Source: Bacteroidales bacterium (GTDB lineage Bacteria; Bacteroidota; Bacteroidia; Bacteroidales; Tenuifilaceae). From it: a stretch of DNA of 64,000 nucleotides. Shown here in pieces: positions 2-55,569 of this stretch; positions within the stretch are counted from its first letter, which is position 1; each line of letters starts with the position of its first letter. The stretch lies in NCBI GenBank assembly GCA_003818205.1, contig RPRQ01000017.1, forward strand, positions 1-64,000, given 5' to 3'. The notes beneath the pieces were generated by a model. It searched no databases, was not told the origin of the DNA, and saw only the letters and a program-made list of their open reading frames with translations. The translations under genes were made by a program, and so were the position numbers.

Positions 2-256
2 AATAAGAGCTACCTCCTGCTGCTCGATATTAACATGCCGAAAATGGATGGGGTTGAAGTGCTAAGAAGAATAAAAGCCGATGAGGAGCTAAAAGAAATT
101 CCCGTAGTAATGCTCACCACAACTGATGATCCGAGGGAGGTTGAAGCATGCTATAAAATTGGCTGTAACATTTATATCACTAAACCCGTTGATTTCTTTA
201 AATTTGCAGAGACGCTGAAACGGCTTAGCCTATTCATCCAAATTGTAAAAGTTTAA
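2..256 (+). CDS. Response regulator receiver domain, 5' end cut by window
   Basis: This is the C-terminal part of a CheY-like phosphoacceptor receiver; the reading frame is open to the window edge. The phospho-acceptor Asp is visible in the LLLLDINMPKMDG block (codon 26-28), followed by the switch Thr in VVMLTTTDD and the conserved Lys in YITKPVDF. The protein ends at VKV with no output domain, so it is probably a single-domain CheY/Rcp-type regulator. The next gene, a REC-PAS-histidine kinase, starts 20 bases downstream on the same strand, so the two are probably co-transcribed and may be partners. The family call is firm; the partner and signal are unknown. Confidence 0.9.
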   Translation, partial: NKSYLLLLDINMPKMDGVEVLRRIKADEELKEIPVVMLTTTDDPREVEACYKIGCNIYITKPVDFFKFAETLKRLSLFIQIVKV

Positions 257-6689: not shown

Positions 6690-6782
6690 AATTAAGCGGA
6701 TGAGAATCAAGCGGGCTCTATTCGCCTCAGCTAATTTGCAGTATTCAAGCTGGAACAAGCTGGAAAGCACAATAACGAATTG

Positions 6783-7913
6783 CTAATCCATTAGAGGCAT
6801 GGAAATAATGAAGCGGCTACCTTTTCCTCGCTGGCTTTCAACGCTTATTGCTCCATTATTCTTTTCAACAAACTCCTTGCATAGCAATAGCCCTAATCCT
6901 GTGCCCTCCTCGTTGGCCGTTCCTATTTTGGATAACTTGCTGTCGATTCTGAAAATTTTTTCAACATGAGCAGGGTCAATGCCTATGCCATTATCGGCAA
7001 CAATAATATCGCAAACATCAGAATGTTCCTGAATATTAACGCTTACTTCACCGTTACAACTTGTAAACTTAATAGCATTTGACACAAGGTTTCTTAATAC
7101 CGTTTTCATCATCGCTGCATCAGCGTAGATGTAAGCATCGGTATCATTCTCGAAAATCAATTCAATATTTTTCTTTTTGGCAGCATCATCGAAAAGGGAT
7201 TTAATTTCTGCAATAATTGCCTTACAGCTTATCCGTTCAGGCTTTGCTTGTAAATTCCCTGTTTGCATTCGAGCCCACTCCAATAAGTTCTCTAGCAGGT
7301 TGAATGTCTGTTTCGATGTGCTATTAATACCTTTTACAACCTCTTTAACGGTTTCAATATCTAAATTTTGAATATTATCCATCAGCTCATTGCTCAAACC
7401 CATTAACAAATGAAGAGGATTCTTTAAATCATGAGCGATGATTGAGAAAAATTTATTCTTTGTTGAGTTGAGCTCCTCCAGCTCCCTCGAATATTCCTCA
7501 AGCTTTTTCTCCCTTTCTTTAATCTGCTTATTTGCGTTGATGGTTTTAAAGTGATTAACAATTTTAAGCGTTAACTCTATGTCCTTAAATGGTTTCGGGA
7601 TGTAATCAATGGCTCCAAGCTCCAAGCCCTTTTTAATATTCTCGGCATCAGATATTCCCGTCAGAAAGATGACAGGAATATCCTTCACCGAAGCATCTTT
7701 ATGAATCTCAGCATAAACCTCAAAGCCTGTTATATCGGGCAAAACAATATCGAGAAGGATTAAATCTGGCATTCCCTCGGCGAGCAGCTGCAATGCTTCG
7801 CTCCCAGAATATGCTGATATGGGTAAAAAATTATTCTTTATAAGTATCTCCGAGATATATGAATTGATGAGCTTACTATCATCAACTACCAATACTTTAC
7901 CCGAATAATTCAT
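6783..7913 (-). CDS. Receiver-histidine kinase hybrid
   Basis: 376 residues with an N-terminal receiver (DD at 11-12, phospho-acceptor Asp55 in LILLDIVLP, Lys in IPKPFKD), a short coiled coil (about 125-150), HisKA with His161 in IAHDLKNP, and HATPase_c with DNGIGI and GTGLGLLL. It is closely similar in layout to the kinase at 277-1788 but lacks the PAS domain, and both share the AHDLKNP H-box and the RMQ/RSQ-containing helix, so the two are probably paralogues. It has no transmembrane helices. A TerB-like gene lies 76 bases upstream on the same strand. The family call is firm; its partner is unknown. Confidence 0.93.
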   Translation of the reverse strand: MNYSGKVLVVDDSKLINSYISEILIKNNFLPISAYSGSEALQLLAEGMPDLILLDIVLPDITGFEVYAEIHKDASVKDIPVIFLTGISDAENIKKGLELGAIDYIPKPFKDIELTLKIVNHFKTINANKQIKEREKKLEEYSRELEELNSTKNKFFSIIAHDLKNPLHLLMGLSNELMDNIQNLDIETVKEVVKGINSTSKQTFNLLENLLEWARMQTGNLQAKPERISCKAIIAEIKSLFDDAAKKKNIELIFENDTDAYIYADAAMMKTVLRNLVSNAIKFTSCNGEVSVNIQEHSDVCDIIVADNGIGIDPAHVEKIFRIDSKLSKIGTANEEGTGLGLLLCKEFVEKNNGAISVESQRGKGSRFIISMPLMD

Positions 7914-7989
7914 GAAAATACATTTTAACTTAGAATGCGTTTCCCTCGATGCAGCTTGTTAATCAATACAATCTCAACGCTACAACCGT

Positions 7990-8418
7990 TTACTTCCTCA
8001 TCTTGAAAACGCTAAAAAGCTCATCCTCGCTCCTATTCTGCTTTATGCCGTTTACAAGAAGATTAATAAGCCTTTCGGTGTCAGCATCGCTAAATGAAGA
8101 TGCAATAGCCAATCGCTTAATCATGTTGATTTCATTAGTAAACATTACGCCATCAGCCATAGCCATGGCAACAACGTCGTAAAGTTGATGAAATCTTTCC
8201 TCCAATGAGTAAGGAGGGTTATATGTTTTTGAATCGCGTTTTTCGATCAATGCGCTAATTTCGGGGTCTGTAAACCCAAGTCGTTTACCAACCCGATAAA
8301 GCAATTCGGACTCTTTCCTATCAATAACTCCATCAGCATTTGCCACTTGAATTAGATGCAAGAAGTGCTCTTTACTAACTTTTTTATCATGATGATCGAA
8401 ATAGTTTAGCATAGTCAT
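7990..8418 (-). CDS. TerB-like tellurite-resistance family protein
   Basis: A 142-residue acidic, all-helical protein. It has two TerB-like helical repeats, each with an acidic turn of the kind ANADGVIDRKE (about residues 27-37) and AMADGVMFTNE (about 87-97). These DG turns are typical of TerB/DUF533 relatives, which bind metal and associate with membrane stress complexes. There are two candidate ATG codons two residues apart (8418 and 8412), and neither has a clear ribosome binding site. It sits 76 bases upstream of the REC-histidine kinase and may share its transcript. The family assignment is good; the role is unknown. Confidence 0.75.
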   Translation of the reverse strand: MTMLNYFDHHDKKVSKEHFLHLIQVANADGVIDRKESELLYRVGKRLGFTDPEISALIEKRDSKTYNPPYSLEERFHQLYDVVAMAMADGVMFTNEINMIKRLAIASSFSDADTERLINLLVNGIKQNRSEDELFSVFKMRK

Positions 8419-8516
8419 GTTGGTTTAAATTGGTTACTTATAAACAAAAATTGAAATAGAAATGTTTTTAATTGAGTTTTTGATTCATTCTAAATTGACT
8501 AAAGTGAAAACTATTT

Positions 8517-8730
8517 ACCATGGAGGCACACCTGCCTGCCGCCTGCCTGCCGGTAGGCAGGGTAGGCAGGGAGATCACAGAGGCATGTTTCACTGACCAC
8601 AGAATTATAATCTTGATAAATTTTTTACCTAATGTACAAAAACAAATACTTTTTTTAATCATTAAGACCAAATAAGAATATTCTAAACTATTATTCTCTG
8701 TGCTCTCAGGGTCTCCGTGGTTTTTTATTC
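8517..8730. repeat. Intergenic inverted repeat with embedded GC-rich palindrome
   Basis: Outer arms of the type accatggaggcaca...atcacagag and ctctgtgctctcag...tccgtggt, about 150 bases apart, enclose the palindrome at 8531-8570 (CCTGCCTGCC / GGTAGGCAGG). Same family as the repeats near 5.4 kb and 11.8 kb. No gene is supported here. Confidence 0.7.
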
Positions 8731-8795
8731 ATTTTCGATTACTAATGAATAGTTACCCAAAGTTAAATAATCGCTTGCTATTTACTACAAATTCT

Positions 8796-8825
8796 TTTGC
8801 ATTTTTCAAAAACTTCATATATTTG
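8796..8825 (+). promoter_or_regulatory. Bacteroidota-type promoter for the leader ORF and MATE gene
   Basis: TTTG at 8796-8799, an 18-base spacer, then TATATTTG at 8818-8825, matching the -33 TTTG / -7 TAnnTTTG consensus of Bacteroidota. It implies a start near 8832 and an unusually long leader of about 150 bases before the first possible start codon. Confidence 0.5.
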
Positions 8826-8984
8826 CATCGTCACAGATTTATACTTCGATGAAACCTATTCTAGTAATCCGATTTAACCCCATGCCTTTAGCCACCTGCT
8901 AAAGCGCAATTTTTTTTATTCCTTTTCAATATTTTTTTTTCAAATTAATTATTTACTAACCATTTAATTCTTGGAGGATTTCCT

Positions 8985-9107
8985 ATGAAAATTACTGTAT
9001 TCAATTCAACTGTCGTGCTTATTACGCCGACCACATTGGCATTGCCAAACCCTTTTACAGCTAAAAATCAAGTTAAACATCGAAAACGAAAACGAAATGA
9101 GACATAA
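8985..9107 (+). CDS. Possible 40-codon leader ORF upstream of MATE gene
   Basis: A small ORF of 40 codons with a strong Shine-Dalgarno sequence (GGAGG at 8973-8977, about 7 bases before the ATG), which is rare in this window. It encodes a hydrophobic N-terminal half and a strongly basic tail (KHRKRKRNET). Its stop codon lies inside the first codons of the MATE gene, an 11-base overlap, so translation of the exporter could be coupled to it. It may be a regulatory leader peptide or a chance ORF; no family is recognised. Confidence 0.4.
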   Translation: MKITVFNSTVVLITPTTLALPNPFTAKNQVKHRKRKRNET

Positions 9108-10518
9108 TAGATTCAACCAATATTTTCTATCCATTAAAAATGTTATAAAAGAAATTTCAGATGCAATAAAGGGCACCGAGGTCGACTACACCTCGATAAG
9201 CCTTCGCAAGGCGTTAATACTACTCTCCATCCCAATGGTACTCGAAATGTCGATGGAATCGATATTTACCATTGTCGATATTTACTTTGTCTCTAAGCTA
9301 GGCTCTGATGCAACATCAATTGTAGGTCTTACAGAATCGTTGCTAACGCTAATCTATGCTTTTGGTATTGGCTTTGCTATATCGGCAACAGCTATCGTTT
9401 CGCGTAGAATTGGAGAAAAAGAACCCCGTAAAGCGGCCAATGCAGCATTTCAGGGAATACTTGTTGCTGGAGTTGTATCATTGCTAATATCAGCTATAGG
9501 GATTCTATTTAGCGACAGTTTACTTCGGGTAATGGGTGCAAGCGATGAGGCGATTACGAATCATGGTGGTTATACCAAGCTGATGCTTGGAGGAAATATG
9601 ACCATTATGTTTCTGTTCATCCTGAATGGAATATATCGTGGGGCGGGCGATGCGGCTATAGCGCTAAGGGTATTAATAATATCGAACTTGATAAACATAA
9701 TACTCGACCCAATGCTAATTTTTGGTATTGGTCCCTTCCCTGAGCTAGGGGTTACAGGTGCTGCAGTTGCTACAAATATTGGAAGAGGTATTGGAGTTAC
9801 CATTCAACTCTACACATTGTTTTCAGGTAGCAGCAGAATTCGATTGTTTTTGAAAGATTTAAAGCCCGATTTAAGTCAAATCGTATCCTATCTAAAACTT
9901 TCATCGGCAGGGATTTTTCAACTAATCATCGGAACAACGAGTTGGGTTGCTATGGTTCGAATAATTTCAGAATTCGGCAGCGTTGCGGTTGCGGGTTATA
10001 CAATTGGGATTAGGGTAATAATTTTTGCCATACTTCCTTCGTCGGGGCTAAGCAATGCGGCAGCAACCCTCGTAGGGCAAAATCTTGGGGCGGGTAAGCC
10101 AAAGCAAGCGGAACGTTCGGTATGGTCAACGGGAATTGCCAACTCGATTTTCTTGGGCATTATCGGGCTAGTTCTCGTTATTTGGCCTGAATCCGTAATA
10201 AGATTGTTGGTTCAACAAGCCGACGTTGTTGAGAAAAGCGTTGAATGCCTTAGGATTGTCAGCATTGGTTTTATTTCCTATGGGTTTGGAATGGTGCTAG
10301 TGAACTCATTAAACGGAGCAGGAGATACGCTAACCCCGATGTATATCAATATTTTCTGCTTTTGGCTTCTTGAGATTCCATTGGCATATCTACTTGCTAT
10401 TAAGTTTGGAATGCAGGAAAGAGGCGTTTACTACGCCATTGTAGTCGCTGAAACGACAATGACCTTAACCGCACTTCTGTTCTTTATAAGGGGAAAATGG
10501 AAGTTGAAGAAGGTGTGA
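9097..10518 (+). CDS. MATE family efflux transporter
   Basis: A 473-residue inner-membrane protein with about 12 hydrophobic helices in two related halves, typical of MATE (NorM/DinF-like) exporters that use a Na+ or H+ gradient to expel cationic drugs or metabolites. Family-like blocks include LRKALILLSIPMVLEM at the start of helix 1, GADAAT-like positions, and GAGKPKQAERSVW in the second half. A cytoplasmic extension of about 35 residues precedes helix 1. The start at 9097 overlaps the upstream small ORF. The substrate cannot be predicted. Confidence 0.9.
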   Translation: MRHNRFNQYFLSIKNVIKEISDAIKGTEVDYTSISLRKALILLSIPMVLEMSMESIFTIVDIYFVSKLGSDATSIVGLTESLLTLIYAFGIGFAISATAIVSRRIGEKEPRKAANAAFQGILVAGVVSLLISAIGILFSDSLLRVMGASDEAITNHGGYTKLMLGGNMTIMFLFILNGIYRGAGDAAIALRVLIISNLINIILDPMLIFGIGPFPELGVTGAAVATNIGRGIGVTIQLYTLFSGSSRIRLFLKDLKPDLSQIVSYLKLSSAGIFQLIIGTTSWVAMVRIISEFGSVAVAGYTIGIRVIIFAILPSSGLSNAAATLVGQNLGAGKPKQAERSVWSTGIANSIFLGIIGLVLVIWPESVIRLLVQQADVVEKSVECLRIVSIGFISYGFGMVLVNSLNGAGDTLTPMYINIFCFWLLEIPLAYLLAIKFGMQERGVYYAIVVAETTMTLTALLFFIRGKWKLKKV

Positions 10519-10528
10519 TAAAAACATA

Positions 10529-10590
10529 AACGCAAAGTCACAAAGTCGCAAAAAAGTAATTCAAACTTTGCGGCTTTGTGCCTTAGCGTT
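10529..10590. terminator. Repeat hairpin between convergent genes, likely bidirectional terminator
   Basis: Imperfect inverted repeat: arms 10529-10552 (aacgcaaagtcacaaagtcg) and 10567-10590 (ctttgtgccttagcgtt). It lies exactly between the ends of the MATE gene and pyrF, which converge. It belongs to a GCAAAG-type intergenic repeat that also occurs at 23.9-24.0 kb. Confidence 0.55.
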
Positions 10591-10593
10591 AAG

Positions 10594-11421
10594 TTAAAAT
10601 CCTGCGGTAACTAAAATCTGCTCCATCTCCTTCTGGAGCTGCATAGCCTTTTGTTTTGCAGCATCGGCAAAGCGCTCAGTGCTGTCGGCATAGATAATGC
10701 CCCGTGAAGAGTTCACCAAAAGCCCACATTTACTATTTAACCCATATTTGGCAACCTCTTTAAGGCTACCGCCTTGCTCGCCAACACCAGGGACTAGAAG
10801 AAAATGCTCGGGGGCAACTTTACGTATATCGCTAAATAACTCCGCACGAGTAGCTCCAACAACATACATGGTGTTATCGGGGTTTCCCCACTTGGATGAC
10901 TTTTCTATCACCTCTTCAAATAATTTCTTACCAGAGGTACTCTCAATCATCTGAAAATCGGAGAAGCTATCGTTCGAGGTTAGGGCAAGAAGAATAACCC
11001 ATTTATTGGCGTACTCAAGGAATGGAGCCACCGAATCCTTGCCCATGTATGGTGAAATGGTTATGGAGTCGCAATCGAGGGTTTGAAAGAATGTACGGGC
11101 GTACATCTTTGCAGTGCTAGTAATATCGCCCCGTTTGGCATCGGCAATAAGAAATAATTCGGGGTATTTACTACGTATATACTTCAAGGTTTTTGAAAGG
11201 CTGTTCCAGCCAGCTGCTCCATGTACCTCATAGAAAGCTAAATTCGGTTTTACGGCAACTACATGATCGGCTGTGGCATCGATAATCGCCTTATTGAACT
11301 CAAAAATAGGATCATCGCAGGCAAGGATATGCTGTGGAATCTTCGATAAATCGGTATCAAGCCCAATACAAAGGAAACTCTCCTTAATCTTAATCTGTTC
11401 GAATAGCTGATCAGCGGTCAT
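10594..11421 (-). CDS. pyrF: Orotidine 5'-phosphate decarboxylase
   Basis: Converts OMP to UMP, the last step of de novo pyrimidine synthesis, in the cytoplasm. At 275 residues it is the longer form (PyrF subfamily 2) common in Bacteroidota. The catalytic DxKRGDI signature appears as [12 protein letters not shown], the N-terminal [14 protein letters not shown] holds the first active-site Asp, and VPGVGEQGG and [11 protein letters not shown] form the phosphate-binding end. It is the last gene of a purM-prfA-pyrF run on the minus strand, although about 470 bases of repeats separate it from prfA. The call is secure. Confidence 0.96.
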
Positions 11422-11479
11422 GTTAATATGATTGATGCAAAACTTTAATTAATATCTACCTAAAAAAGTCATTATTAAC

Positions 11480-11640
11480 CGAGAAAAAAACTAAATTCAA
11501 TAGGTCGCAGCGATGCTGCTTCTGGCTAAAATATAATCATCTATTCTACAAATAGTTCGCAGCCATGCTGCTTTTTAAAAGTCGCATAGCGACGACCTAT
11601 TTGTAGCAATCTTAACTAAAACGAAATCCAAGCCCCATTG
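11480..11640. repeat. Intergenic repeat with direct and inverted copies
   Basis: Two near-identical direct copies of an AATAG(g/t)TCGCAGC(g/c)ATGCTGCTT unit (about 11500-11522 and 11546-11570) followed by an inverted partner (GTCGCATAGCGACGACCTATTTG, about 11580-11602). No gene is supported. It is probably a mobile or structural intergenic repeat. Confidence 0.6.
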
Positions 11641-11747
11641 GGGGGGTGACCTATACATTGAATTAGTAATATCAAGTATTTCATGAATTCTATAATATTT
11701 TAGTCGGTCAGTAGTGAAAAAAAGTAATGATTTAGAACCAAAGAATT

Positions 11748-11835
11748 ATTGGAATGATGGAATAATGGGTTCAACAAACCACCCTCTTCCGTGTATGCCC
11801 TGCCTACAGGCAGGCAATATTCCATCATTCCATAT
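11748..11835. repeat. Composite palindromic repeat, third copy
   Basis: Outer arms TGGAATGATGGAAT (about 11750-11764) and ATTCCATCATTCCA (about 11819-11832) enclose the GC-rich palindrome at 11797-11816 (CCTGCCTACAGGCAGG). It has the same layout as the copy near 5.4 kb, which shows the outer and inner palindromes belong to one element. Confidence 0.75.
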
Positions 11836-11887
11836 TGTATATTGCATGTAAAAGAAACGCTCGGTTGTAACACTTACACAAAAAAAC

Positions 11888-12976
11888 CTACTCTTGGCTT
11901 GCTGCCTTCAACCTCTCGGCATTCTCAGCAAGCTGTAGTTTGTCAATAATCTCCTGAATATCACCATCAATAATAGCAGATAAATTATAGAGAGTTAGGT
12001 TGATTCGATGATCGGTAACCCTGCCCTGCTGATAGTTATAGGTGCGAATTTTAGCCGAACGATCACCCGTTGAAACCATCGTTTTACGCTTTAACGAAAT
12101 TTCATCAATATATTTTTGATATTCAAGATTATACAGTCTTGTCCTTAGCTCTGCTAGGGCCTTATCGTAGTTTTTCAGCTGAGATTTTTGATCCTGACAC
12201 TGAACAACGATACCGCTAGGAATATGGGTTAATCGAATTGCCGAGTAGGTTGTATTAACGCTCTGCCCTCCAGGCCCCGATGCGCAGAAAGTATCCTTCC
12301 GGATATCCTCGGTTCTCAGGTCAATATCAAACTCCTCTGCTTCAGGAAGAACGGCTACTGTTGCCGCAGATGTGTGAACACGACCTTGGGTTTCGGTTTG
12401 AGGTACACGCTGTACCCGATGAACACCCGATTCATATTTCAGTATTCCATAAACACCCTTTCCGGTAACGCTTAAAACAATCTCTTTGTACCCACCCGAA
12501 GAACCTTCGGAAATACTCGACACCTCGTATTTCCAACCTTTTGCTTCGATATACTTGATGTACATTCTATATAGATCTCCAGCAAATATACTCGCCTCAT
12601 CGCCACCTGTTCCTGCTCGAATTTCAAGGACCGCATTCTTATTGTCCTGTGGATCGGCAGGGAGTAATAAAACTTTTATCTCCTCTTCGAGATTGGCTTG
12701 CTGCTGAGTTAAAGTTTCAAGTTCCATCTTGGCCATCTCACGCATCTCCTCATCCTTTTCGTTCTGTAAGATTTCTCTCGATGATTCAATATTACTAAGA
12801 ATATTTTTGAAAGTATCGTATGCTTCAACTAATGGCTCAAGCTCACGGTATTCCTTATTAAGGCTTACATAACGTTTCATGTCACCAATCACAGCGGGGT
12901 CGGTAATCTGCTGTCCAATCTCCTCGAATTTATGCCTTAAACCCTCTAACTTTCTTAAAATTGAATTTTCTTCCAT
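11888..12976 (-). CDS. prfA: Peptide chain release factor 1
   Basis: RF1 recognises UAA and UAG and triggers peptide release on the ribosome. The 362-residue protein has the GGQ catalytic motif (GPGGQSVN, about residue 238) and the PxT stop-codon tripeptide as PQT in [15 protein letters not shown], which separates RF1 from RF2 (SPF). The helical N-terminal domain covers about residues 1-110. It lies 64 bases downstream of purM on the same strand and is followed by pyrF, a gene order also found in other Bacteroidota. A -7-like box lies just upstream. The call is secure. Confidence 0.97.
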
Positions 12977-42291: not shown

Positions 42292-44127
42292 TTACTCGTT
42301 TATGAGTTCAATTATTTTTTTACTGAGAACTTCCGCTGTTGCCAAGGCATACGATTGATTTAGGTCTGCATATTGAATTTGCCGAAAGTTTATAATGAAT
42401 AGTGAGATTAGGTATTCTAAAGGATTGGTGTTGTCAATCATATGTTGTTTAGCGTTCTCTCTGATTTGAGTGATAAGTTTGACTATTTCCAAAACTGATG
42501 GTCTCTTGATAAATAAGAGGTCAAATGATTTTGAGAAACTACTGATTGAGAGAAGTTCTGTCTCGCAACTTGTCAACTCATCTACTGGAATATAAAAAGG
42601 CAAATGCTTAAACTTCAAAGAACATTCAAGTGTCGCATGGTCAATCAATGAGTGATGTTGATTCGTCCAACCAAAATCAATTAAGTAAACGCCTGCTTGT
42701 TCATCTTTGAAAAAGTTTTCACTATGTAAATCTCCATGACATATTTTTTTATAGGTTCTGAGAGAAGAATTTTTTATCGTTTTATAATTTCTGACTAATT
42801 CCTCTGTATTGATTGCAGATTCATCAATGCCTTTGATAAGCGAAATTGCTTTCAATATTTTGGCTTCTGATTTTAAATAGTCGCCATAAAGTGTTTTTAC
42901 AGAAAAAGTATCTTCTGATTTCTTTGTGTTCCATATTTGATATGGGGCACAACCAAACAATTCATCAATTACTTTTTCAAGGGTGAATGAGTGATTGTAT
43001 TTATCTCTTAATTTATCGCTAACCAATTTTGAAAATGGAAACGAATCTTTCTTGCTGTCTGACGAAGCATAATTGTATCGGATTGCTTCATGAGTAACTG
43101 TATCTTCATATTCGGCTGTATAATTTGGAACTAACAAATCGGAAATGTATTGCCTAAAAAGCGATTTTTCTTTCTTGATTTTTCTCTCTTGATTTTTCAC
43201 ATCAAACTTGACAACAAACCTTCCCATTTCGGGATGGTTACCTCTAAGCGGTTGGATTTCTATAACCTTTGAACCACTGTTGCCACTTTTCAGAAATTTA
43301 TAATCAAGAATCATTTCGTTGCCGTCAAATAGTTTTTTGATTATTAATTCTTCCTCAAATGACAAAGCACGGTTGTTGAATATTTTATCAGAATAACTTT
43401 TTATACTTTCTAAGCCATCACCTGAATCACGAACATCATAATCTCCTGCAACCGATACTGGAATTTTCTTTAGTGAAATAAAACTTGTGTTTGAAAAAAT
43501 GCCAAGTAATTTTTCAACATCAGGAACAAAGATTTCATTGTTCCGAAGGTTTGAGGCGATTAAGAAAACACATAAATAATTTTGATTGGCTACTTCGGGT
43601 TTCTTATTAGCCAACTCTAAAAAATCCTTCAACTGATATTTCTCAATGTGAAGATTTTCATCCTTTACATCAAATGAGTTTATCTCAGGATGCCTACTGT
43701 AGCTTTCATCATAAAGAACAATGACTTTGGTTTTTGTATCAATAGCGTTTTCTAATTTGTAAACGAAATACCCTTTTATTTTAAGGAAGAAAGATTCATA
43801 CTTTGAGAAAAAATTGAACAAGACCTTATTGAAATCATCTTCAATGTCTATTTTCTTTTCTTTCTTTTTTACTGTGGTAATTTTTGATGACGCTTCCCAT
43901 GTGGCTTTATCTTTTTCTAAAGTTTCGTAGTTCAGATTAGGAATTTCAATTCCATCCTCAAACGATTCATTTTCTATTTGCTTAAAAAGCGGAAGGAGTT
44001 CATATCTTTCTTCAGGTGGTAGAGCTAAAAGTTTTGCAACGAAATCCTGTGCTAATCCGAAAGCATATTCTTGCTTTAGCCGAATTTCAGTGTATTCTTG
44101 AAGATATGTTGAAAGCACATTTTTCAT
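42292..44127 (-). CDS. Kinase-fold (aminoglycoside phosphotransferase-like) protein, second gene of the operon
   Basis: 611 residues. The N-terminal 220 are unrecognised. From about residue 265 there is a protein-kinase-like/APH fold: a Lys-containing strand in RFVVKFDVKNQ, the catalytic loop KKICHGDLHSENF (about residue 462), and the metal loop YLIDFGWTN (about 479). HGDxxxxN and DFGW are intact, so phosphotransfer is plausible. Related kinase-fold domains appear in bacterial conflict systems, where the substrate is usually unknown. It starts 2 bases after the ATPase stop. An antibiotic-resistance role is unlikely given the size and context. Confidence 0.75.
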   Translation of the reverse strand: MKNVLSTYLQEYTEIRLKQEYAFGLAQDFVAKLLALPPEERYELLPLFKQIENESFEDGIEIPNLNYETLEKDKATWEASSKITTVKKKEKKIDIEDDFNKVLFNFFSKYESFFLKIKGYFVYKLENAIDTKTKVIVLYDESYSRHPEINSFDVKDENLHIEKYQLKDFLELANKKPEVANQNYLCVFLIASNLRNNEIFVPDVEKLLGIFSNTSFISLKKIPVSVAGDYDVRDSGDGLESIKSYSDKIFNNRALSFEEELIIKKLFDGNEMILDYKFLKSGNSGSKVIEIQPLRGNHPEMGRFVVKFDVKNQERKIKKEKSLFRQYISDLLVPNYTAEYEDTVTHEAIRYNYASSDSKKDSFPFSKLVSDKLRDKYNHSFTLEKVIDELFGCAPYQIWNTKKSEDTFSVKTLYGDYLKSEAKILKAISLIKGIDESAINTEELVRNYKTIKNSSLRTYKKICHGDLHSENFFKDEQAGVYLIDFGWTNQHHSLIDHATLECSLKFKHLPFYIPVDELTSCETELLSISSFSKSFDLLFIKRPSVLEIVKLITQIRENAKQHMIDNTNPLEYLISLFIINFRQIQYADLNQSYALATAEVLSKKIIELINE

Positions 44128-44129
44128 AG

Positions 44130-46031
44130 TTAAGCATTATCACCATAGAGTTTTTTTCTTGTATCAAAAGCTTCTTTTCCGCCTTCAAGCAAAGTCAAAA
44201 TATTTTCCTTCACATTCTTAATTGAACCCGAAACATCAATCTTGGATTTTTTCTCGTCATAGTTTAAGAATACATTATGCTCTGAATCGGAAAGAACAGG
44301 AATGTTAGGATTGTGAGTGATAAAAATTAACTGTCTCTTTTCTTTTTGCTCACGAATGATTTTATGAATTGCATCAGTGATATACTTGTTGTCCAAATTA
44401 TCTTCTGGCTGGTCAATCAACAAAGGATTATCTGATACTGCAAAAACTATTGGTAAAACTGTTGTGCATCTTTGACCTGTTGAAAGTTCATCTGATTTTT
44501 TGTAATGCTCCTTTGCTTTTTTGTCTTTGCTTCCTTTGGCATCAACTTTCAGAAAGAACTCAGGCAAATCTTCACTGTATAAACTTTCAATTTCGTAAAT
44601 CTCCTCGCTTTCATGCAAAGCATCAATGATTGCATTTGACCTTTCTTCATCAATCTGTGCTACATTTTTTAAGGTTTCAAAATCTCTTTCATGGATGGTT
44701 GCAGCAAACTTGTCGGGGGATAGATTTTGAACGATATAAGGAATGATTGCATTGTATCTCAAATTAGAACCCTTCAAAGCATTTCTCAAATGAGTTTCAT
44801 ATTCGTCTGTTATACCTCCAAAAGTCAAAGTGATTTTAATTGAACCTTCCAATTCAGTGTTTAACTCATTGACTATATTTTTTCGGAGTGTAAAGAGTTC
44901 TCTCTTTTTGTCGTTCAGTTGTTTTACAAGCGTTACTCTTTGGGTTTTTACTTTTTGTCTTTTCGTTTCTAATGTTCCAATTTCTTTTTCAAGTATTTGT
45001 TTTTCCTCAACTTTTTTTGAAAGTTGATTGTATTTGTTGATGTATTCTTTGTGCTTGTCAAACTTCTGTTTCAGTTTGACAAACTCACTCTGCTGAGTTT
45101 GGTGAACATTTTTTAATTCCCCTGATATTTTTTCAACTTTAGAAATTGACTGAGTTATCAATTTAATGTTAGCAGAATTTTCCTTTAAGATTTTATTCAA
45201 TGATTCTTCTAATTCGGTTTTGATTTTACCAATGATTTCTTTATTGATAAATGATTTGGCATCTGAGTTAATCGTCAGGAAACTTTGTATCTCCTCATTT
45301 ACATCTTGCAAACTATCCTTTGTCTCAGTAAGCTTTTCAAGAACTTTTGCCGCATACCTCTTTTCTGAATTTCTTATTTTTTCATTGCCATCTGCCTTCT
45401 CAAATTCTTCTTGCTCCTTCTGCTTAATATCGTCTGGCTTTTCTTCCTTTTGCCGTTTTAAATCTTCTTCAACAGTTTTGAAATTCAGAAGTTGTTCTTT
45501 TATCTGTGCAACTCTTGCGTTCTCACTTCTTATTGAAACTGCATTTTGCTTTAAAGCAATACGCAACTTCTTTATTTCAGATTTAGTTGTGTTTACCTCA
45601 GCACGAATTTGTTTGTCAATAAGGTCAAGACGGTCTTTGCTGCTTAATCCAATTCGTTCTATTTTCAATGCAGGATAAATGTCGCACTCAAAAATGTCCT
45701 CTAAACTTTCCAAAGAAATATTACGCTTGCCAGGGAGTGTATTAACCTGTGGTTCATCACCAAATGTTTTCACTACTTCGTAAGATTTCCCTTCGTTGTC
45801 CTCAACCAAAAGTTGTATCGTCCCGTTTAGCAAATTTGCTTTTAGGATATTTGAAACATTTGAATCTTCTTCTGCTTCATTATTCAATGCTGCCTGAATA
45901 AAATACAACAGTGTTGATTTTCCTGTCCCTCGTCCACCCATTAAGCAATTCAGCTTTTCTGAAAAACTGAGTGAGAAGTTTTCTTCAAAGAAGGAAGAAC
46001 CTTTTACCGATAATGATTTGATTCTTTTCAT
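44130..46031 (-). CDS. SMC/Rad50-like ATPase, first gene of the operon
   Basis: 633 residues with a split ABC ATPase head: Walker A MGGRGTGKSTLL (residues 32-40), a long coiled coil (about 130-400), the ABC signature LSTGQR (about 514), Walker B LLIDQPEDNLDN (about 540) and a switch His in IFITHNPNIPVL. This is the build of PtuA/RecN/Rad50-type ATPases that regulate nucleases in Septu, Gabija and related defences. Its partners here are a kinase-fold protein and an HNH-TPR protein, which matches no system I can name. About 900 bases upstream carry no gene on this strand apart from a small ORF. Confidence 0.87.
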   Translation of the reverse strand: MKRIKSLSVKGSSFFEENFSLSFSEKLNCLMGGRGTGKSTLLYFIQAALNNEAEEDSNVSNILKANLLNGTIQLLVEDNEGKSYEVVKTFGDEPQVNTLPGKRNISLESLEDIFECDIYPALKIERIGLSSKDRLDLIDKQIRAEVNTTKSEIKKLRIALKQNAVSIRSENARVAQIKEQLLNFKTVEEDLKRQKEEKPDDIKQKEQEEFEKADGNEKIRNSEKRYAAKVLEKLTETKDSLQDVNEEIQSFLTINSDAKSFINKEIIGKIKTELEESLNKILKENSANIKLITQSISKVEKISGELKNVHQTQQSEFVKLKQKFDKHKEYINKYNQLSKKVEEKQILEKEIGTLETKRQKVKTQRVTLVKQLNDKKRELFTLRKNIVNELNTELEGSIKITLTFGGITDEYETHLRNALKGSNLRYNAIIPYIVQNLSPDKFAATIHERDFETLKNVAQIDEERSNAIIDALHESEEIYEIESLYSEDLPEFFLKVDAKGSKDKKAKEHYKKSDELSTGQRCTTVLPIVFAVSDNPLLIDQPEDNLDNKYITDAIHKIIREQKEKRQLIFITHNPNIPVLSDSEHNVFLNYDEKKSKIDVSGSIKNVKENILTLLEGGKEAFDTRKKLYGDNA

Positions 46032-46651
46032 ACTTAATTTCTTTTGGTATTATTCTAAAATTAAATTTATAAAGTAAGAAAACTGAATTGAAGATGTTAA
46101 GACTAAACCGAACAAAGCGTTGGAGATTACTCTTTTTTGCTTTGTCTTCAGGCTGGCTTGTGCATTGGCAGGCAAAAGTAAATGTTAGCAATGTGTATTG
46201 GCAATAAAATAAAAAAATAAAACTTCATTGGGTAGGCATGTGTGTCTGCCTGTCAGTTGAATTATCCTCATCTCGCTGTTTTTTAATATTTGTTCGTCTG
46301 TCATTGTATTCTATCAAGTAACTGCGTCATTGTCTATGGAGAACTGTCGTTTTTTAGAGTTCTAACTAATGTTTTTACAAATATCACATATTCTGTTAAT
46401 TACGTTTATCTGTTTATTCATTGTACTTTAGCTTTCATTCAAAAGAAAAACGTTCGCATTAGAGATCAGTTACTCCGATTCAAGGTGGATTATGACTAAC
46501 GTTTTTGTAAAAATATATATATATGAGCATATTATAAAATTTAATTATCACATATTTATTCAGATTCTTTCCTCATTCTCGTTAACTCTGGAAATGAATT
46601 CAGTTTACGAGATAGGGAGAGTTGATTACAAAGTTCTTCTACTAAAAAAGG
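46032..46651. other. AT-rich intergenic region upstream of the ATPase operon
   Basis: About 620 bases without a supported gene. It must hold the promoter of the ATPase operon, but no full TTTG/TAnnTTTG pair was found. Short ORFs here have no coding character. Confidence 0.4.
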
Positions 46652-46697
46652 AGGGGAGCGGGGGACTCGAACCCCCAGCTCTCTACCCTGAATTCAG
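46652..46697 (-). other. tRNA-like 3' fragment
   Basis: Minus strand: a perfect T arm (GGGGG-TTCGAGT-CCCCC) followed by an acceptor-like GCTCCCC and then a T-run. No matching 5' GGGGAGC strand or D arm exists nearby, so it is only the 3' part of a tRNA-like sequence, possibly the scar of an insertion between the two defence operons. tRNA identity cannot be set. Confidence 0.45.
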
Positions 46698-46706
46698 ATT
46701 ACACAA

Positions 46707-46967
46707 CTACTGGTTCCAATGTCTTATAGTATGGAGTTTGGAAACCGTTCTCCCCGCGAGAGCAACCCCAACTACTACACTTATGATTCCGTTTATCATA
46801 GTTGTAAAGTTTTGAATTAACATCATTGTTACCAATGAGGAGAACGTCACCACTCCAACTAAGGGCATTGCAAATTCAATAGTCAATGTAACCCTTAAAC
46901 TCAGGCTCTTTTGTCCCGATTCTGGGACTATATTTTCAATGGATATTATCATAAATTTCTGCTTCAC
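46707..46967 (-). CDS. Possible small two-TM protein downstream of TIR-STING
   Basis: An 86-residue ORF with two hydrophobic helices (EFAMPLVGVVTFSSLVTMML and MINGIISVVVGVALAG) and a basic tail. Its start codon lies inside the last 32 bases of the TIR-STING gene in another frame, which suggests translational coupling, and most of it does not overlap any other gene. No family is recognised. It may be a third CBASS component or chance; confidence is moderate to low. Confidence 0.4.
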   Translation of the reverse strand: MKQKFMIISIENIVPESGQKSLSLRVTLTIEFAMPLVGVVTFSSLVTMMLIQNFTTMINGIISVVVGVALAGRTVSKLHTIRHWNQ

Positions 46968-47889
46968 GTTTAACTAATACCATTTCGTCAAATCCGTGTC
47001 TGATTAATAATTTTTTTAGAGTAGTAATAAATCGTCTTAACTCTCTCTCAAGAATCGAATTATAGTCAGGACTTAATTTATTAAAATCGTTAGGAAGCAG
47101 ATTTGCTATGGAGTGATTTATTCCAGCAATTATTGTTGGAAAGTCAATAAATTCAAGAGTGTTATTTTTTATTTGAGTGTCGATGCTTACATGCCTTGGT
47201 CTTCCTGCATATTTGAATGAGACATTTTCAGTCTCAATTGACGATTTCAATTTTTCAAATTGAAGATTTACATCTTCATTAATTCTGTCAGGTATGATAA
47301 CATTCACTTTGCATTTTTTGTAATGAATATCTTTGGATGTAAATCCTCCGTTTTCAATGATGAACCTACAAATGGGGACAAGTAGATTTTCAAAATATAC
47401 CGAAGCCAATGTTGCGGACGGAAAGAAATTAATTTCATCATCTGCACTTGAAAGAAACAAATCCTTTATCTGATTTACCGCAGTTTCAAAACTTGCTTTG
47501 TCCTTCTTGTCAAAATGAGCTAAAGACAGTCCGTTAAAATCTGAAAGTAATTTTATTTCTTTGTCAATTAGAAATGCACATTTGGATGTCCCTAAACGTC
47601 CAGTAAATAAACCTAATTCAAAAAGGACATTATCTCTTGGTTGCATAACTTCTTTACCTCTAAAAACCACCATGTCATCATTAGTGCCAAGCAAAATGCC
47701 GAAGTCAAATTGCAAAGATGCTTTTAAAAGGTCGGCTAAAAAATTCTGATTTATTTTGAAAACTGAAGTGTCCCAAACCTTTTCATTCCAGATGCTAACA
47801 TCAAAATCTTTTTCTAAAATAGATTTAGCAATTTCAGCAAGTACGAGTTCTTCAGTTGAAGAACCAATGAACAATTTCTTTTTTATCAT
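46936..47889 (-). CDS. TIR-STING CBASS effector
   Basis: 317 residues. Residues 1-150 form a TIR-like nucleotide-binding domain (LFIGSSTEE at the start; putative catalytic Glu91 in DNVLFELGLFTG). Residues 155-317 resemble prokaryotic STING: the FKYAGRPRHVSIDTQI lid strands and then TLEFIDFPTIIAGINHSI, which align in pattern with the lid and LEYATPLQTLFA region of human STING. In known TIR-STING systems, c-di-GMP made by the partner CD-NTase drives filament formation and NAD+ cleavage, killing the infected cell. It overlaps the CD-NTase gene by 4 bases (ATGA), so the two are co-translated. Confidence 0.85.
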   Translation of the reverse strand: MIKKKLFIGSSTEELVLAEIAKSILEKDFDVSIWNEKVWDTSVFKINQNFLADLLKASLQFDFGILLGTNDDMVVFRGKEVMQPRDNVLFELGLFTGRLGTSKCAFLIDKEIKLLSDFNGLSLAHFDKKDKASFETAVNQIKDLFLSSADDEINFFPSATLASVYFENLLVPICRFIIENGGFTSKDIHYKKCKVNVIIPDRINEDVNLQFEKLKSSIETENVSFKYAGRPRHVSIDTQIKNNTLEFIDFPTIIAGINHSIANLLPNDFNKLSPDYNSILERELRRFITTLKKLLIRHGFDEMVLVKREAEIYDNIH

Positions 47890-48944
47890 ACTCTTACTGT
47901 GCTTTTAAAATCAATAAAGATTGCTTCTACTTCTGCTAATAGTAATTTTAAGTTTTGCAGTTTGGTTGCCTTGTTTCTAAATATGTATTCTTTATTATCT
48001 ACAGAAGTTACATCATCAGAATGTGTTTGTTTGGTGCAAATACTTTTCATTTGATTATACAAAACAGGAACAAGTTCATAAAATGACAAGTTCTGATATT
48101 CAGAAGCTTTAATGTCATAGCAAATTGCGTTTATGTCAAAACTGCTTAAATCTATTTCGTGGTCAGAGTTCGCTTTGCTATTCTTTAAGAACCTAATCAT
48201 CTTTTTAAGTCTTCCGTTTGTTTCCGAACTACGGTCATTAATTCGTTTGATACTTAGAAATGGAAAGTCAGCACTTTCTCTTGAGTGAGTTTCTTTGTTA
48301 TAAACTTGAATTCCTCTGTAATCTCCTTTGTCATTGATGACAGAAGAAACATCATCATACCAATTGGCAATAACAATATCAACTTCACGATTTAGACTTA
48401 GGTTTTTTATTTTGATAGATTTGGGCTTTGTTAAGTCACGTGTTTGATACTTGTCTGATAGAATTCTTTCGCTATCCAGTCTTAACTCTCGTAAATCATT
48501 TAAAGCATTGCCGGTATAGGAAGGTAAATTTATTTCTCTCTGAAGTTTGTCAATATATGTTTGATTGTATTTTGCCCTTCGTTCAGGTGTATCTAAAATC
48601 GTTTTAAAGTTCCTTGTATCAGGCTGGTAGAATTTTTCACAGATAGTAAGCAAGTCAATGTCGCTGTATCCTTTAATGTGGGTGTCGGTCATTACTGAGC
48701 CTTGATACTTGAATGAAACATCTTTTAATTCGTTAGCAAGATGTTCCTTTACTCGTTCCCCAGCATCTCTGCTCTTCTGAGTGTATTCAGGTTCAACCCC
48801 TTTCATAGCAACTCTTATGTAAGTCAATACATCACTATAAGATATTGTAGACAGTTCATCAGAAAATGCTTTTTTGATTGCAAAGTTTTCAGGGTTGATT
48901 CGTCCGCGAATACTTTCTGTTAGTTGTTTGTAATTTTTTGCCAT
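47886..48944 (-). CDS. CD-NTase (CdnE-like cyclic dinucleotide synthase) of CBASS
   Basis: 352 residues of the cGAS/DncV-like nucleotidyltransferase superfamily. The active site is intact: G82-S83 of FKYQGSVMTDT, the metal-binding D95-I-D97 in GYSDIDLL, and the third Asp189 in NREVDIVIANW. It should be switched on by phage infection to make a cyclic dinucleotide that activates the effector encoded next to it. STING-linked enzymes of this kind make c-di-GMP; that product is inferred from the partner. No ubiquitin-like or HORMA/TRIP13 regulators are nearby, so this is the minimal two-gene (type I-like) layout. Confidence 0.88.
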   Translation of the reverse strand: MAKNYKQLTESIRGRINPENFAIKKAFSDELSTISYSDVLTYIRVAMKGVEPEYTQKSRDAGERVKEHLANELKDVSFKYQGSVMTDTHIKGYSDIDLLTICEKFYQPDTRNFKTILDTPERRAKYNQTYIDKLQREINLPSYTGNALNDLRELRLDSERILSDKYQTRDLTKPKSIKIKNLSLNREVDIVIANWYDDVSSVINDKGDYRGIQVYNKETHSRESADFPFLSIKRINDRSSETNGRLKKMIRFLKNSKANSDHEIDLSSFDINAICYDIKASEYQNLSFYELVPVLYNQMKSICTKQTHSDDVTSVDNKEYIFRNKATKLQNLKLLLAEVEAIFIDFKSTVRV

Positions 48945-49891: not shown

Positions 49892-51370
49892 TTAAGAATT
49901 CATAAGCTTTTCCGTCCGTTCAAGCACTATTCTTTTTTTGAGTTTTACGATATTGCAAAAATACTCATTAACTGCTAACGGGTCTCCCTGAGGATTTTCA
50001 TTTGCATTTCTAACCATACACATAGTACAAAACTCTTTATCAGGACATTGAATACATTTAGGAAAGTCTTGATTGCGTAAGGCTCTTAAATATTTCACTT
50101 TTTCAGAATTATCCCAAATATCATTGAGAGCAGTTTCGTTTACATTACCAACAACATAATCCTGCCAGCCAGCACAAGGATAGACATTTCCATTGTCTGC
50201 TATGCAAATAGAGGAATGACAAACACTACAGACAAAATCGTTTGGAGTAGTATTTTTTTTCTTCTCAACTTCCATTTCCATTTGTTCCAAATATTTTGCA
50301 TCATTCTCAACTTTGTCGTTAATCACTTCTTTGATTTCATTAATTGATAGACGGTAACTCAAATTTTGTGTTGTATGGTTATATCTTGCTATGATGCCAT
50401 AATCATCTCCGACACGAATCTTATTCTTTTTCGCCCATTTGATAACGTCATCATAACAGTTCTTGTTTTGTTTCAATATTGGACAGCTTATTTGCAAAGG
50501 GATATCATTCTCAATCAGTTTCAAAATTGCTTTTTTTGTTTTTTCAAAACTCCCTTTCATTTGGGTAATCTCATCGTGAATACAGGAATCCATTGAGTAT
50601 AATGAGACTTGAACACCTAAAAGGGGGTTTGCCTTCATCTCTTTAATAATTTCATCATTAAGTAATGTCAAATTACTAAGGACATTTACAGAAAAATCAT
50701 ATTCTTTGCATGTTCTTAAAAAATCGCAAAAATTTTTGTGCAACATTGGTTCGCCACCACTTAACGTCAAATGCAATAACCTCATATTTTTACTTTGTTC
50801 TAAAACAGCATAAAAAAAATCAGGCTCGATATGATTTACTTTGTTATCATGTGGAATATAACAATGTACGCATCTTTCGTTGCACTTGCTTGTAATTTCA
50901 ATGTGTAAATTTGTAAGCTGTGGTTTGCCTTTAAAGTATTCTTCTAGAAAATCCTGTGTGGATTTTTCAGGATGCATAATAGTCGGAGAAGAATCCTTTT
51001 TTATTGTTTCGTGTTTTAATGTCTTGTAGGAAAACCTCGTGTCTTTTTCTTCGCACTCTTGCAAGGTCTCGCCAGATACAATAAATCCATCCCGTTCAAG
51101 CATGTAATAAAATTCTCTGACATCATTCTTTATTGTTCTAATGTCAACATCTGTAAATTGCTTCTTTATTTTTTTTGCAAGTTCATCAAGGGTTTGTGGT
51201 TTTCTATCTAAAACAGACATAAAAACTGCCCCACTTTCCGATAGGATTTTGTCACCGATGTAGTTTTCGTTATTATTTGTTTGTTTATATCCGAAATTCC
51301 TATTGTCCGTTATATACCCAAAAGACTCATATTTTCTGAATAAAACATTAGATTTTTGCTTGAAAAACAT
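49892..51370 (-). CDS. Radical SAM/SPASM peptide maturase
   Basis: 492 residues. An N-terminal PqqD-like peptide-binding domain (about 40-105; TLDELAKKIKKQFTDVDIRTIKNDV) precedes the radical SAM core with the CxxxCxxC cluster C163-NER-C167-VH-C170, the GGE motif in LTLSGGEPML, and a C-terminal SPASM domain with CSVCHSSICI, the PCAGW Cys and CIQCPDKEFCTMC for auxiliary Fe-S clusters. Such enzymes install C-C, thioether or epimer modifications on RiPP precursors. A 41-residue precursor is encoded just upstream across a hairpin. The chemistry cannot be predicted. Confidence 0.9.
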   Translation of the reverse strand: MFFKQKSNVLFRKYESFGYITDNRNFGYKQTNNNENYIGDKILSESGAVFMSVLDRKPQTLDELAKKIKKQFTDVDIRTIKNDVREFYYMLERDGFIVSGETLQECEEKDTRFSYKTLKHETIKKDSSPTIMHPEKSTQDFLEEYFKGKPQLTNLHIEITSKCNERCVHCYIPHDNKVNHIEPDFFYAVLEQSKNMRLLHLTLSGGEPMLHKNFCDFLRTCKEYDFSVNVLSNLTLLNDEIIKEMKANPLLGVQVSLYSMDSCIHDEITQMKGSFEKTKKAILKLIENDIPLQISCPILKQNKNCYDDVIKWAKKNKIRVGDDYGIIARYNHTTQNLSYRLSINEIKEVINDKVENDAKYLEQMEMEVEKKKNTTPNDFVCSVCHSSICIADNGNVYPCAGWQDYVVGNVNETALNDIWDNSEKVKYLRALRNQDFPKCIQCPDKEFCTMCMVRNANENPQGDPLAVNEYFCNIVKLKKRIVLERTEKLMNS

Positions 51371-51388
51371 AACAATATCTCTTTAATA

Positions 51389-51429
51389 ATCAGGCGACGA
51401 GTTTTAATTGAATAATATCGCCGCCTGAT
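51389..51429 (-). terminator. Hairpin between RiPP precursor and maturase genes
   Basis: 12-bp arms ATCAGGCGGCGA and TCGTCGCCTGAT (one G-T pair) with a 17-base AT-rich loop. It lies between the precursor stop and the maturase start and is not followed by a long T-run. It would fit an attenuator or RNA-stability element that makes the precursor in excess over the enzyme. Confidence 0.65.
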
Positions 51430-51440
51430 CTATTTGCACA

Positions 51441-51566
51441 TTAACGTCCACCTGGCTTTGGTGGATTACAAGGTCTGCCACTCGGTTTACTATTGGGACG
51501 GCATTCTGCCATCTGTACAGTACTTTGTGCCAAAATTTCAGGTCTTTTGTAAATTGCTTTTTTCAT
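51441..51566 (-). CDS. RiPP precursor peptide
   Basis: A 41-codon ORF with leader-like start MKKAIYKRPEILAQSTVQM and a core of about 20 residues rich in Pro, Gly and Arg with Cys22 and Cys33, ending in KPGGR. It is directly upstream of, and on the same strand as, a PqqD-radical SAM-SPASM enzyme, the usual order for a modified peptide. No export or protease gene is within the window next to it. The assignment rests on position and composition; I recognise no named family. Confidence 0.75.
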   Translation of the reverse strand: MKKAIYKRPEILAQSTVQMAECRPNSKPSGRPCNPPKPGGR

Positions 51567-54209: not shown

Positions 54210-54581
54210 TTAAATAAAACCTAAAACATTATCCCATGTCCACTCTTTACAAGATATTGAATTCATATTGGCTGGTTTATCTGATGAAGTAGCACCACCT
54301 ATATAAATACCCATCATAGCTATTTTTTCATCTTTAGCGCAATCAATTTCCCATAACTCGCCATTTGCTTTCTTTGTGTTTTTCGAAATCAATGCAATAA
54401 ACGCATCGCATCCCTTAATTTTAGTTCTGCAATTTGTTTTCCATTTTTCATCCCATGGTTGCTTTACCGACATATCAACAAAATCATAAGGAACATATTT
54501 ATTTTTTGCCTGCCCGGTAAACAATATTTTTGTTGTTTCATCCTCGATAGCAAAGGCTACAAATACTCTTTTATTTGCCAT
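54210..54581 (-). CDS. ThsB-like TIR domain protein (MTH538/DUF1863 family)
   Basis: A single 123-residue TIR-like domain. The order of elements fits the MTH538 TIR-like family that includes Thoeris ThsB: RVFVAFAIEDE at strand A, PYDFVDMSV, the SVKQPWDEKWK loop, KIKGCDAFIALISKNTKK, and the putative catalytic Glu78 in GELWEIDCA. ThsB proteins make an NAD-derived signal in response to phage. No ThsA-like partner is in the window, so this is not a standard Thoeris. It lies 19 bases after the caspase gene in the same operon. Confidence 0.82.
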   Translation of the reverse strand: MANKRVFVAFAIEDETTKILFTGQAKNKYVPYDFVDMSVKQPWDEKWKTNCRTKIKGCDAFIALISKNTKKANGELWEIDCAKDEKIAMMGIYIGGATSSDKPANMNSISCKEWTWDNVLGFI

Positions 54582-54600
54582 TTTAATTAGTTTTTAATCG

Positions 54601-55569
54601 TTAGATTTTGTTGTCTTTCACTAATCTCCAGTAGTGATATCCAAGACTTGTAAGTTTACATGCCTTTGAATTCATTGCCGCGAAATACATAAATTGTTCT
54701 TCAACAGGTACAACAAGTCCAATACTTTGCAATTTTTGAAGATTCTTAAATATTGTTACATTCTTACGTTTTGCATATGGTTTAACTACTTTATGCTCAA
54801 TTTGCAAAGTATTTGTATCTTCATAGGATGGGTCTAAAAAGTAGAGTTCTGTAGGAGATGGGAAATATTCAGCCAATTTTCGTATAATATCTATTGGAAC
54901 TTGAGGGATCACGGTTCTTAATGATATAAATCTTGTAATATTTGTTTTAAAAACAGGACGTTGATCCCACGCTCCCAAGGCCTGATCGATGTACGCATAA
55001 ACACTACCCGGTGTAATATGGCCATTAAGGTCTGCTGCCCCCCCCAGTAAAGCATCAAGCAACAAATTCGTAAAAACGCCATGTCCGTTAATTTCTAAAG
55101 ATGTCTCGCTATCCCTACTGGCAGTAAGAATTGAAACCCCTTCAGCTATGTGAGCAGATCGGTCTCCAGTAATTTTGGGAGAACCAAATGCCCCAGAATA
55201 ACAACAATCAAGAACAATTACCCGGTTTTCTGCTTTAGATTCATTTGCAATAGCAAGTATTTCATCCATCGAAACCCCTTCATCGTTTCGCTTATAATCA
55301 GGCGTTACGATATATCCACCGATGTCATTAATAAAACCATGTCCAGAAAAATAGAATAGTGCAGTTTCATTTTTCCCTTTAAATAATTCGATAATTAAAC
55401 TTTTTAACTCACCTTTTGTTGGAACATCTGTTTTTAGTTTCACATCGTAATTCGGAGAACCATTACCATTCTTTTCAATGATACTGGCAAACGCTTCCGC
55501 ATCATTAACACACCCGCTAAGAGGTGCGCTGGGGTATTTATTTATACCAATAACAAGTGCTTTCTTCAT
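54601..55569 (-). CDS. Caspase-like peptidase (C14 family)
   Basis: 322 residues. The N-terminal 210 are a caspase fold with the start KKALVIGINKYP, catalytic His77 in YFSGHGF and catalytic Cys123 in VLDCCYSG. The C-terminal 110 residues (RKLAEYFPSPTELYFLDPS...) look like a separate helical, perhaps winged-helix, domain. In bacterial conflict systems such proteases are activated effectors that cleave cell proteins. It is the first gene of the caspase-TIR-OMP run and follows DUF4407 with a 181-base gap, so it may have its own promoter. Confidence 0.88.
   Translation of the reverse strand: MKKALVIGINKYPSAPLSGCVNDAEAFASIIEKNGNGSPNYDVKLKTDVPTKGELKSLIIELFKGKNETALFYFSGHGFINDIGGYIVTPDYKRNDEGVSMDEILAIANESKAENRVIVLDCCYSGAFGSPKITGDRSAHIAEGVSILTASRDSETSLEINGHGVFTNLLLDALLGGAADLNGHITPGSVYAYIDQALGAWDQRPVFKTNITRFISLRTVIPQVPIDIIRKLAEYFPSPTELYFLDPSYEDTNTLQIEHKVVKPYAKRKNVTIFKNLQKLQSIGLVVPVEEQFMYFAAMNSKACKLTSLGYHYWRLVKDNKI

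Follow-up and report, generated by a model that had tools for sequence, protein, structure and literature searches.

The window, a 64,000-nucleotide stretch of Bacteroidales DNA, was analyzed at a locus where a 41-codon ORF, an RNA hairpin, and a 492-codon ORF follow one another on the minus strand (Table 1). The short ORF encodes the peptide MKKAIYKRPEILAQSTVQMAECRPNSKPSGRPCNPPKPGGR, and the sequence-only reading, which had placed a two-cysteine precursor of this size directly upstream of the enzyme, was correct on this point and in its other structural statements. The leader (MKKAIYKRPEILAQSTVQMA) and the core (ECRPNSKPSGRPCNPPKPGGR) were separated at a border inferred from conservation. A scan for sigma-70-type promoters found no site on the minus strand.

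Table 1. Features of the locus and of the adjoining CBASS pair.
Feature	Position	Strand	Basis
Precursor peptide gene, 41 aa	51441..51566	-	Conserved upstream of the enzyme in 24 other loci
Intercistronic RNA hairpin, 13 bp (GAUCAGGCGGCGA ... UCGUCGCCUGAUU)	51388..51430	-	Fold and covariation
Radical SAM/SPASM peptide maturase, 492 aa	49892..51370	-	Pfam, invariant Cys ligands, closest PDB SkfB 6efn
PqqD-like RRE of the maturase (N-terminal)	residues about 43-97		Pfam PqqD, 43-97
Radical SAM core of the maturase	residues 157-312		Pfam Radical_SAM, 157-312
SPASM region of the maturase	residues 381-472		Pfam SPASM, 381-443
Cap12 TIR-STING (CBASS)	46936-47889	-	510.8 bits, above cut-off
CD-NTase (CBASS)	47886-48944	-	Paired with Cap12

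The PqqD, radical SAM, and SPASM domains attributed to the enzyme all scored above their Pfam cut-offs. The three groups of Fe-S cysteines claimed for it were also found: C163, C167, and C170 of the CxxxCxxC (CX3CX2C) motif and the SPASM cysteines C381, C389, C399, C439, C442, C448, C451, and C472 were invariant in 17 diverse homologues, and C384 was nearly so. By profile, the closest solved sequences were SkfB (6efn), PqqE, and the radical SAM enzyme 5v1q. The enzyme fell below the cut-off for all of the best 25 NCBIfam models listed; against models of known maturases (AlbA, SkfB, StsB, and PapB), it reached no more than 68 bits compared to cut-offs of 300–850, and the criterion of matching a known maturase model was thus unmet. 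An AlphaFold2 model was too poor to use (mean pLDDT 59, below 50 at the N-terminus).

Two other identities were tried and rejected. Membership in an anaerobic sulfatase maturase clade without peptide substrates would have refuted the sequence-only reading, but the enzyme lies outside this family, with 49.2 bits for TIGR03942 against a cut-off of 349.45. With the prokaryotic viperin model NF038283, it scored 52.8 bits against a cut-off of 180 and had only the radical SAM fold in common.

Conservation of the precursor and the intercistronic hairpin

A scan of genome contigs with the enzyme as query gave 25 loci, and a precursor was identified upstream of the enzyme in 24 loci besides the window, distributed over Bacteroidota, Desulfovibrionaceae, Deferribacteraceae, Clostridia, and plasmids of Enterobacterales and Vibrionales. 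The earlier reading would likewise have been refuted had the short ORF not been conserved beside related enzymes; among the intact close homologues examined, only one copy, damaged by an IS, lacks the adjoining precursor. Separate tblastn searches of plasmids with the enzyme and with the precursor returned the identical seven records (five E. coli, one Salmonella, and one Photobacterium), in which the enzymes are 52–54% identical to that of the window and the core is MAQCRPNSKPSGRPCNPPGPSGR. The criteria for a radical SAM/SPASM RiPP, namely a short precursor gene conserved beside the enzyme and a PqqD-like RRE together with radical SAM and SPASM cysteine ligands, were both met.

In an alignment of 25 precursors, the leader KP, the MA-x-C junction, and P-(S/C)-G-R-P-C were essentially fixed, and the conserved leader motif was KPxxLAQ. 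The core C-x-P-N-S-K-P-S-G-R-P-C-x-P-P is near-invariant even where the enzyme has diverged to approximately 50% identity; the copy on an E. coli plasmid shares 19 of the last 22 precursor residues with the window, while the enzymes are 52% identical. Examples are MIYTKPKILAQSTVQMAECRPNSKPSGRPCNPPKPGGR (L006), MVYKKPVIVAEGTEQMAKCNSKPSGRPCNPPGPGGS (L019, Deferribacteraceae), and MVYKKPEILAQDTVRMAECRPNSKPSGRPCNPPKPGGR (L020, Oscillospiraceae). A two-residue gap between the two core cysteines is tolerated in L016 and L019. Position 29 is occupied only by Ser or Cys, the swap being seen in L022, L042, and L067, and the absence of any other residue hints that this side chain is involved in the chemistry or in binding the target. 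A formylglycine-type reaction like that of sulfatase maturases was considered and rejected: although the swap is suggestive, S-G-R-P-C differs from the sulfatase motif C/S-x-P-x-R.

The precursor genes of L021 and L034 differ from that of the window by 16 and 15 synonymous codon changes, respectively, which indicates that conservation acts on the protein. It could be argued that an ORF of only 41 codons, with relatives absent from public plasmid gene tables, is a chance or leader ORF and that the enzyme acts on another substrate. This explanation has a negligible probability and is already refuted by the conservation of the protein with abundant synonymous change, its fixed position, and its recovery, together with the enzyme, from one set of seven plasmid records. 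With protein-level conservation across phyla and so many synonymous differences, a chance origin is excluded, and the short ORF is a real gene.

The precursor matched no NCBIfam or Pfam model and was not present in the public plasmid gene tables checked, which are incomplete. The strings KPSGRPC, PSGRPC, YAAGCP, and GSYAAGC were not found in the literature searched, which did not cover subscription papers and supplements. The precursor family is apparently undescribed, while the radical SAM/SPASM kind of RiPP is itself known; what is new is the near-invariant core, the minimal gene content, and the mobile spread.

The hairpin between the two genes, previously described as 12 bp, was found with 13 bp and a folding energy of -21.4 kcal/mol (z -4.55; none of 200 shuffles was as good). 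Over 21 distinct spacers, 94.4% of cells were paired and 7 of 12 pairs had changed on both sides. Two-sided changes occupied 19 cells in the hairpin, compared to 1–5 in slid controls and a shuffled mean of 3.2. Judging from this covariation, the hairpin is conserved with compensatory changes. It lacks a U-run in the window and is thus not a textbook terminator; a T-rich tract follows the stem in plasmid copies of E. coli and Photobacterium. L020 has no hairpin, L019 has a different stem, and no Rfam family was found over the hairpin. In two Desulfovibrio-type copies (L037, 4958-5170; L011, about 535-900), an additional 200–400 nt or so with further hairpins lies between precursor and hairpin. 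These stretches are apparently related and may be non-coding RNA.

Mobility and occurrence

On the E. coli plasmid NZ_LT985265 (L034), the cassette lies inside a complete Tn3-family transposon (5898-12035) with 49-nt inverted repeats and a perfect 5-bp TSD, TTATA; the other genes are tnpA (DDE_Tnp_Tn3), tnpR (Resolvase), and a broken second resolvase copy. A second complete Tn3-type element with the cassette was identified in Photobacterium NZ_CP150463 (L032, 6478-11660), with 55-nt inverted repeats and a perfect TSD, TATAT. The cassette is the only recognized passenger in both elements. Their resolvases are only 28% alike, the maturases 77% alike, and the precursors identical. On the viral contig L037, the cassette adjoins the lysis genes for a holin and a transglycosylase (SLT). 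In the enzyme tree, Bacteroidota, Deferribacterota, Thermodesulfobacteriota, and Pseudomonadota are intermingled, though many forks are weak and MAG binning is a caveat. Taken at the level of sequence, these observations identify the pair as a horizontally mobile two-gene cassette. No paper on a Tn3 element with a radical SAM passenger gene was found in the literature searched, again without subscription papers and supplements. The phage contig L037 also contains two type II hammerhead ribozymes (1-58 and 1018-1089).

The cassette is rare, patchy, and often decayed. It was present in 2 of 395 genomes of the phylum sample, 7 of 393 of the order sample, and 2 of 341 and 2 of 321 genomes from the classes of L020 and L017, respectively, counts that include the genomes used as centres. 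A collection of E. coli genomes gave no DNA match to the plasmid cassette, and a collection of phage genomes gave no precursor and only enzyme matches of 24–27%. L027, L028, and L029 retain only pieces of the enzyme gene, and L022 is apparently frame-shifted. Exactly one precursor copy was found in 8 of the 9 genomes or records searched. The exception, Acerihabitans, had none; by eye, the end of an IS3-like transposase and apparently only the 3' half of the hairpin precede its enzyme gene.

The pair could also be an addiction module, in which the peptide or its modified form is toxic and stabilizes the carrier plasmid, transposon, or island: both genes are small, they are linked and carried on mobile elements, and on some plasmids other addiction genes lie nearby. 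Several copies have decayed, some to the enzyme alone (L017, L027, L028, and L029), which also speaks for such a module; however, decay is expected for the loss of any cargo, a modifying enzyme would be an unusual antitoxin, and there are no toxicity data. An addiction module is regarded as very unlikely.

Genomic neighbours and relatives

In the neighbour comparison, no conserved third gene was common to the loci. L006, L012, and L013, with a TPR protein immediately downstream, and L008 and L009, with RadC-like proteins, came closest. Beside the cassette of the window are the CBASS pair, a caspase-like protease, and a TIR protein. Counted within three ORFs of the cassette, the defence neighbours of other loci were Lamassu LmuB/LmuC and TIR (L006), Ppl (L008), type IIG RM and PDC-S01 (L013), type I RM (L014), an OLD/AriA-like ATPase (L016), AbiD (L021), Hachiman HamA (L022), TIR and PDC-S02 (L025), and a restriction enzyme (L026). 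Strong PADLOC matches (E ≤ 1e-40) were obtained for 9 of 97 cassette neighbours compared to 1 of 97 control ORFs (p = 0.018). The criterion of enrichment near known defence genes was met, with the reservation that the controls, drawn from other contigs of cassette-carrying genomes, form a small set. About half of the loci have no assigned PADLOC neighbour, and no single defence gene is common to them. The location in defence islands is an association only, and such islands also carry unrelated cargo. The sequence-only reading had missed how little the core varies and that the cassette is mobile and often lies in defence islands.

Two further arrangements were seen in the window, both on the minus strand. 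At 42292-48944, the CBASS pair adjoins a Ppl/LmuB-like ATPase and a large protein without a PADLOC match, and at 54210-55569, a ThsB-like TIR protein beside a caspase-like protease may form another defence pair with it.

More distant enzymes (L023, L043/L073, and L069/L071; L023 and L043 are 58 and 42% identical to the window enzyme) pair with another core, GSYAAGCP...C..C.R. These type B relatives (L023, L073, and L071) resemble the cassette in having related enzymes and a KP-type leader and differ in the core; in two of the three loci, an Amidohydro_2 protein follows the maturase. KP-leader precursors therefore form a wider family, in which the PSGRPC type represents the mobile two-gene branch. 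The GSYAAGCP-type precursor, maturase, and Amidohydro_2 genes of L071 (6700-9109) and L073 (4700-7049) constitute a second apparently undescribed RiPP type. Another relative (L072, 3900-11333; 48% identity) lies, by eye, between a DNA methylase/restriction-like cluster and UmuD/UmuC-like genes.

Among known systems, the cassette resembles those of sactipeptide and ranthipeptide maturases (SkfB, AlbA, CteB, and PapB) in combining a PqqD-like RRE, radical SAM, and SPASM with a short cysteine-containing precursor directly upstream. SkfB is the closest solved sequence (68 bits), and the PapB and AlbA models match at 61–68 bits. In contrast to these systems, the enzyme is far below every curated cut-off, the core is rich in Pro/Gly/Arg with a near-invariant PSGRPC, and the cassette is mobile across phyla without an exporter, protease, or immunity gene. 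The grasp-with-spasm and GG-Bacteroidales systems are also Bacteroidota RiPPs with SPASM enzymes, and the core had been described as unlike their precursors. This description holds: the precursor has no double-Gly leader and no NCBIfam precursor match, no ATP-grasp protein was seen beside the cassette, and no such maturase was among the best 25 models listed. Autonomous mobile defence cassettes such as prokaryotic viperin share the small self-contained format, the sites in mobile elements and defence islands, and a radical SAM enzyme; however, the cassette enzyme is not viperin, and defence has not been demonstrated.

Proposed action of the mature peptide

Chemistry and function are inferred here, and no chemistry was observed. 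The PqqD-like domain would bind the leader, and the enzyme would generate a 5'-deoxyadenosyl radical and abstract hydrogen from core residues between or around the cysteines. The two conserved core cysteines make a thioether of the sacti- or ranthipeptide type possible, and a thioether is the commonest outcome for cysteine-containing SPASM substrates; the likely product would carry one or two such crosslinks in the C22–C33 segment. The hairpin might hold the precursor in excess over the enzyme through protection or termination of the upstream message, a role in expression that fits but is untested. A housekeeping protease would trim the leader, and the resulting compact cationic Pro/Arg peptide most likely acts inside the producer.

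Our preferred reading, adopted tentatively and with confidence just short of even, is an autonomous mobile RiPP cassette whose peptide acts inside its producer and is of benefit against phages or competing elements. Intracellular action is preferred because the pair moves as cargo of transposons, phage, and defence islands without accompanying genes for export, immunity, or a dedicated protease. That the core is unchanged from phylum to phylum implies a single conserved target, whether cellular or viral. That the pair is a stand-alone immune cassette, its crosslinked intracellular peptide blocking phages or invaders via one such target as it spreads between phyla, is possible but doubtful. Defence or intracellular action is the least certain part of the preferred reading. 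Conflict systems tend to diversify, and a near-invariant core, more typical of cofactor or signal peptides such as PQQ and mycofactocin, is unusual for them and counts against defence.

The same near-invariance over several phyla, while the enzyme diverges to approximately 50% identity, together with the single precursor per genome in all records searched but Acerihabitans, would suit a peptide-derived cofactor, metal ligand, or signal of the PQQ or mycofactocin kind, used by host enzymes or regulators encoded elsewhere. Such a role is distinctly unlikely for a cassette that is rare, patchy, and carried on transposons and in defence islands, and no enzyme that would use the product travels with it.

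Antibiotics of the sactipeptide and ranthipeptide types typically rely on radical SAM/SPASM enzymes with cysteine-containing precursors, and SkfB, the closest solved sequence, is the maturase of a killing factor. The mature peptide could thus be released as a bacteriocin-like antibacterial that kills competitors, with export and immunity supplied by host genes or with a producer whose own target is insensitive. In the Clostridia relative L070 (5086-9960), the enzyme gene comes after a shorter core, AKCGSGPCGRPCDNKAG, and is itself followed by genes for a UvrA-like ABC protein, apparently in the same operon, and for a second radical SAM protein. UvrA-like ABC ATPases are a known type of self-resistance protein, and this cluster looks more like an antibiotic cluster with self-protection, which counts against the defence reading. 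The presence of the UvrA-like protein could mean that the product of this cluster is directed at DNA. Killing peptides usually diversify, but the PSGRPC core does not; in addition, the loci share no gene for export, proteolysis, or immunity, and the two genes are the only recognized passengers of the Tn3 elements. Bacteriocin genes also co-localize with defence systems (PMC12715929), which supports the antibacterial explanation. On balance, this explanation is considered unlikely.

The cassette, read as a mobile pair whose peptide may act inside the producer, would be easily overlooked as a family, since the precursor is missing from the plasmid gene tables checked. RiPPs are usually encoded by multi-gene clusters with export and immunity functions and have variable cores. 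The present cassette is instead a minimal package of one enzyme and a near-invariant core that is carried across phyla by transposons and phage, alongside anti-phage systems. A core so conserved implies one conserved target, which merits identification, and two genes suffice to ask directly whether modified peptides serve bacteria as intracellular immunity.
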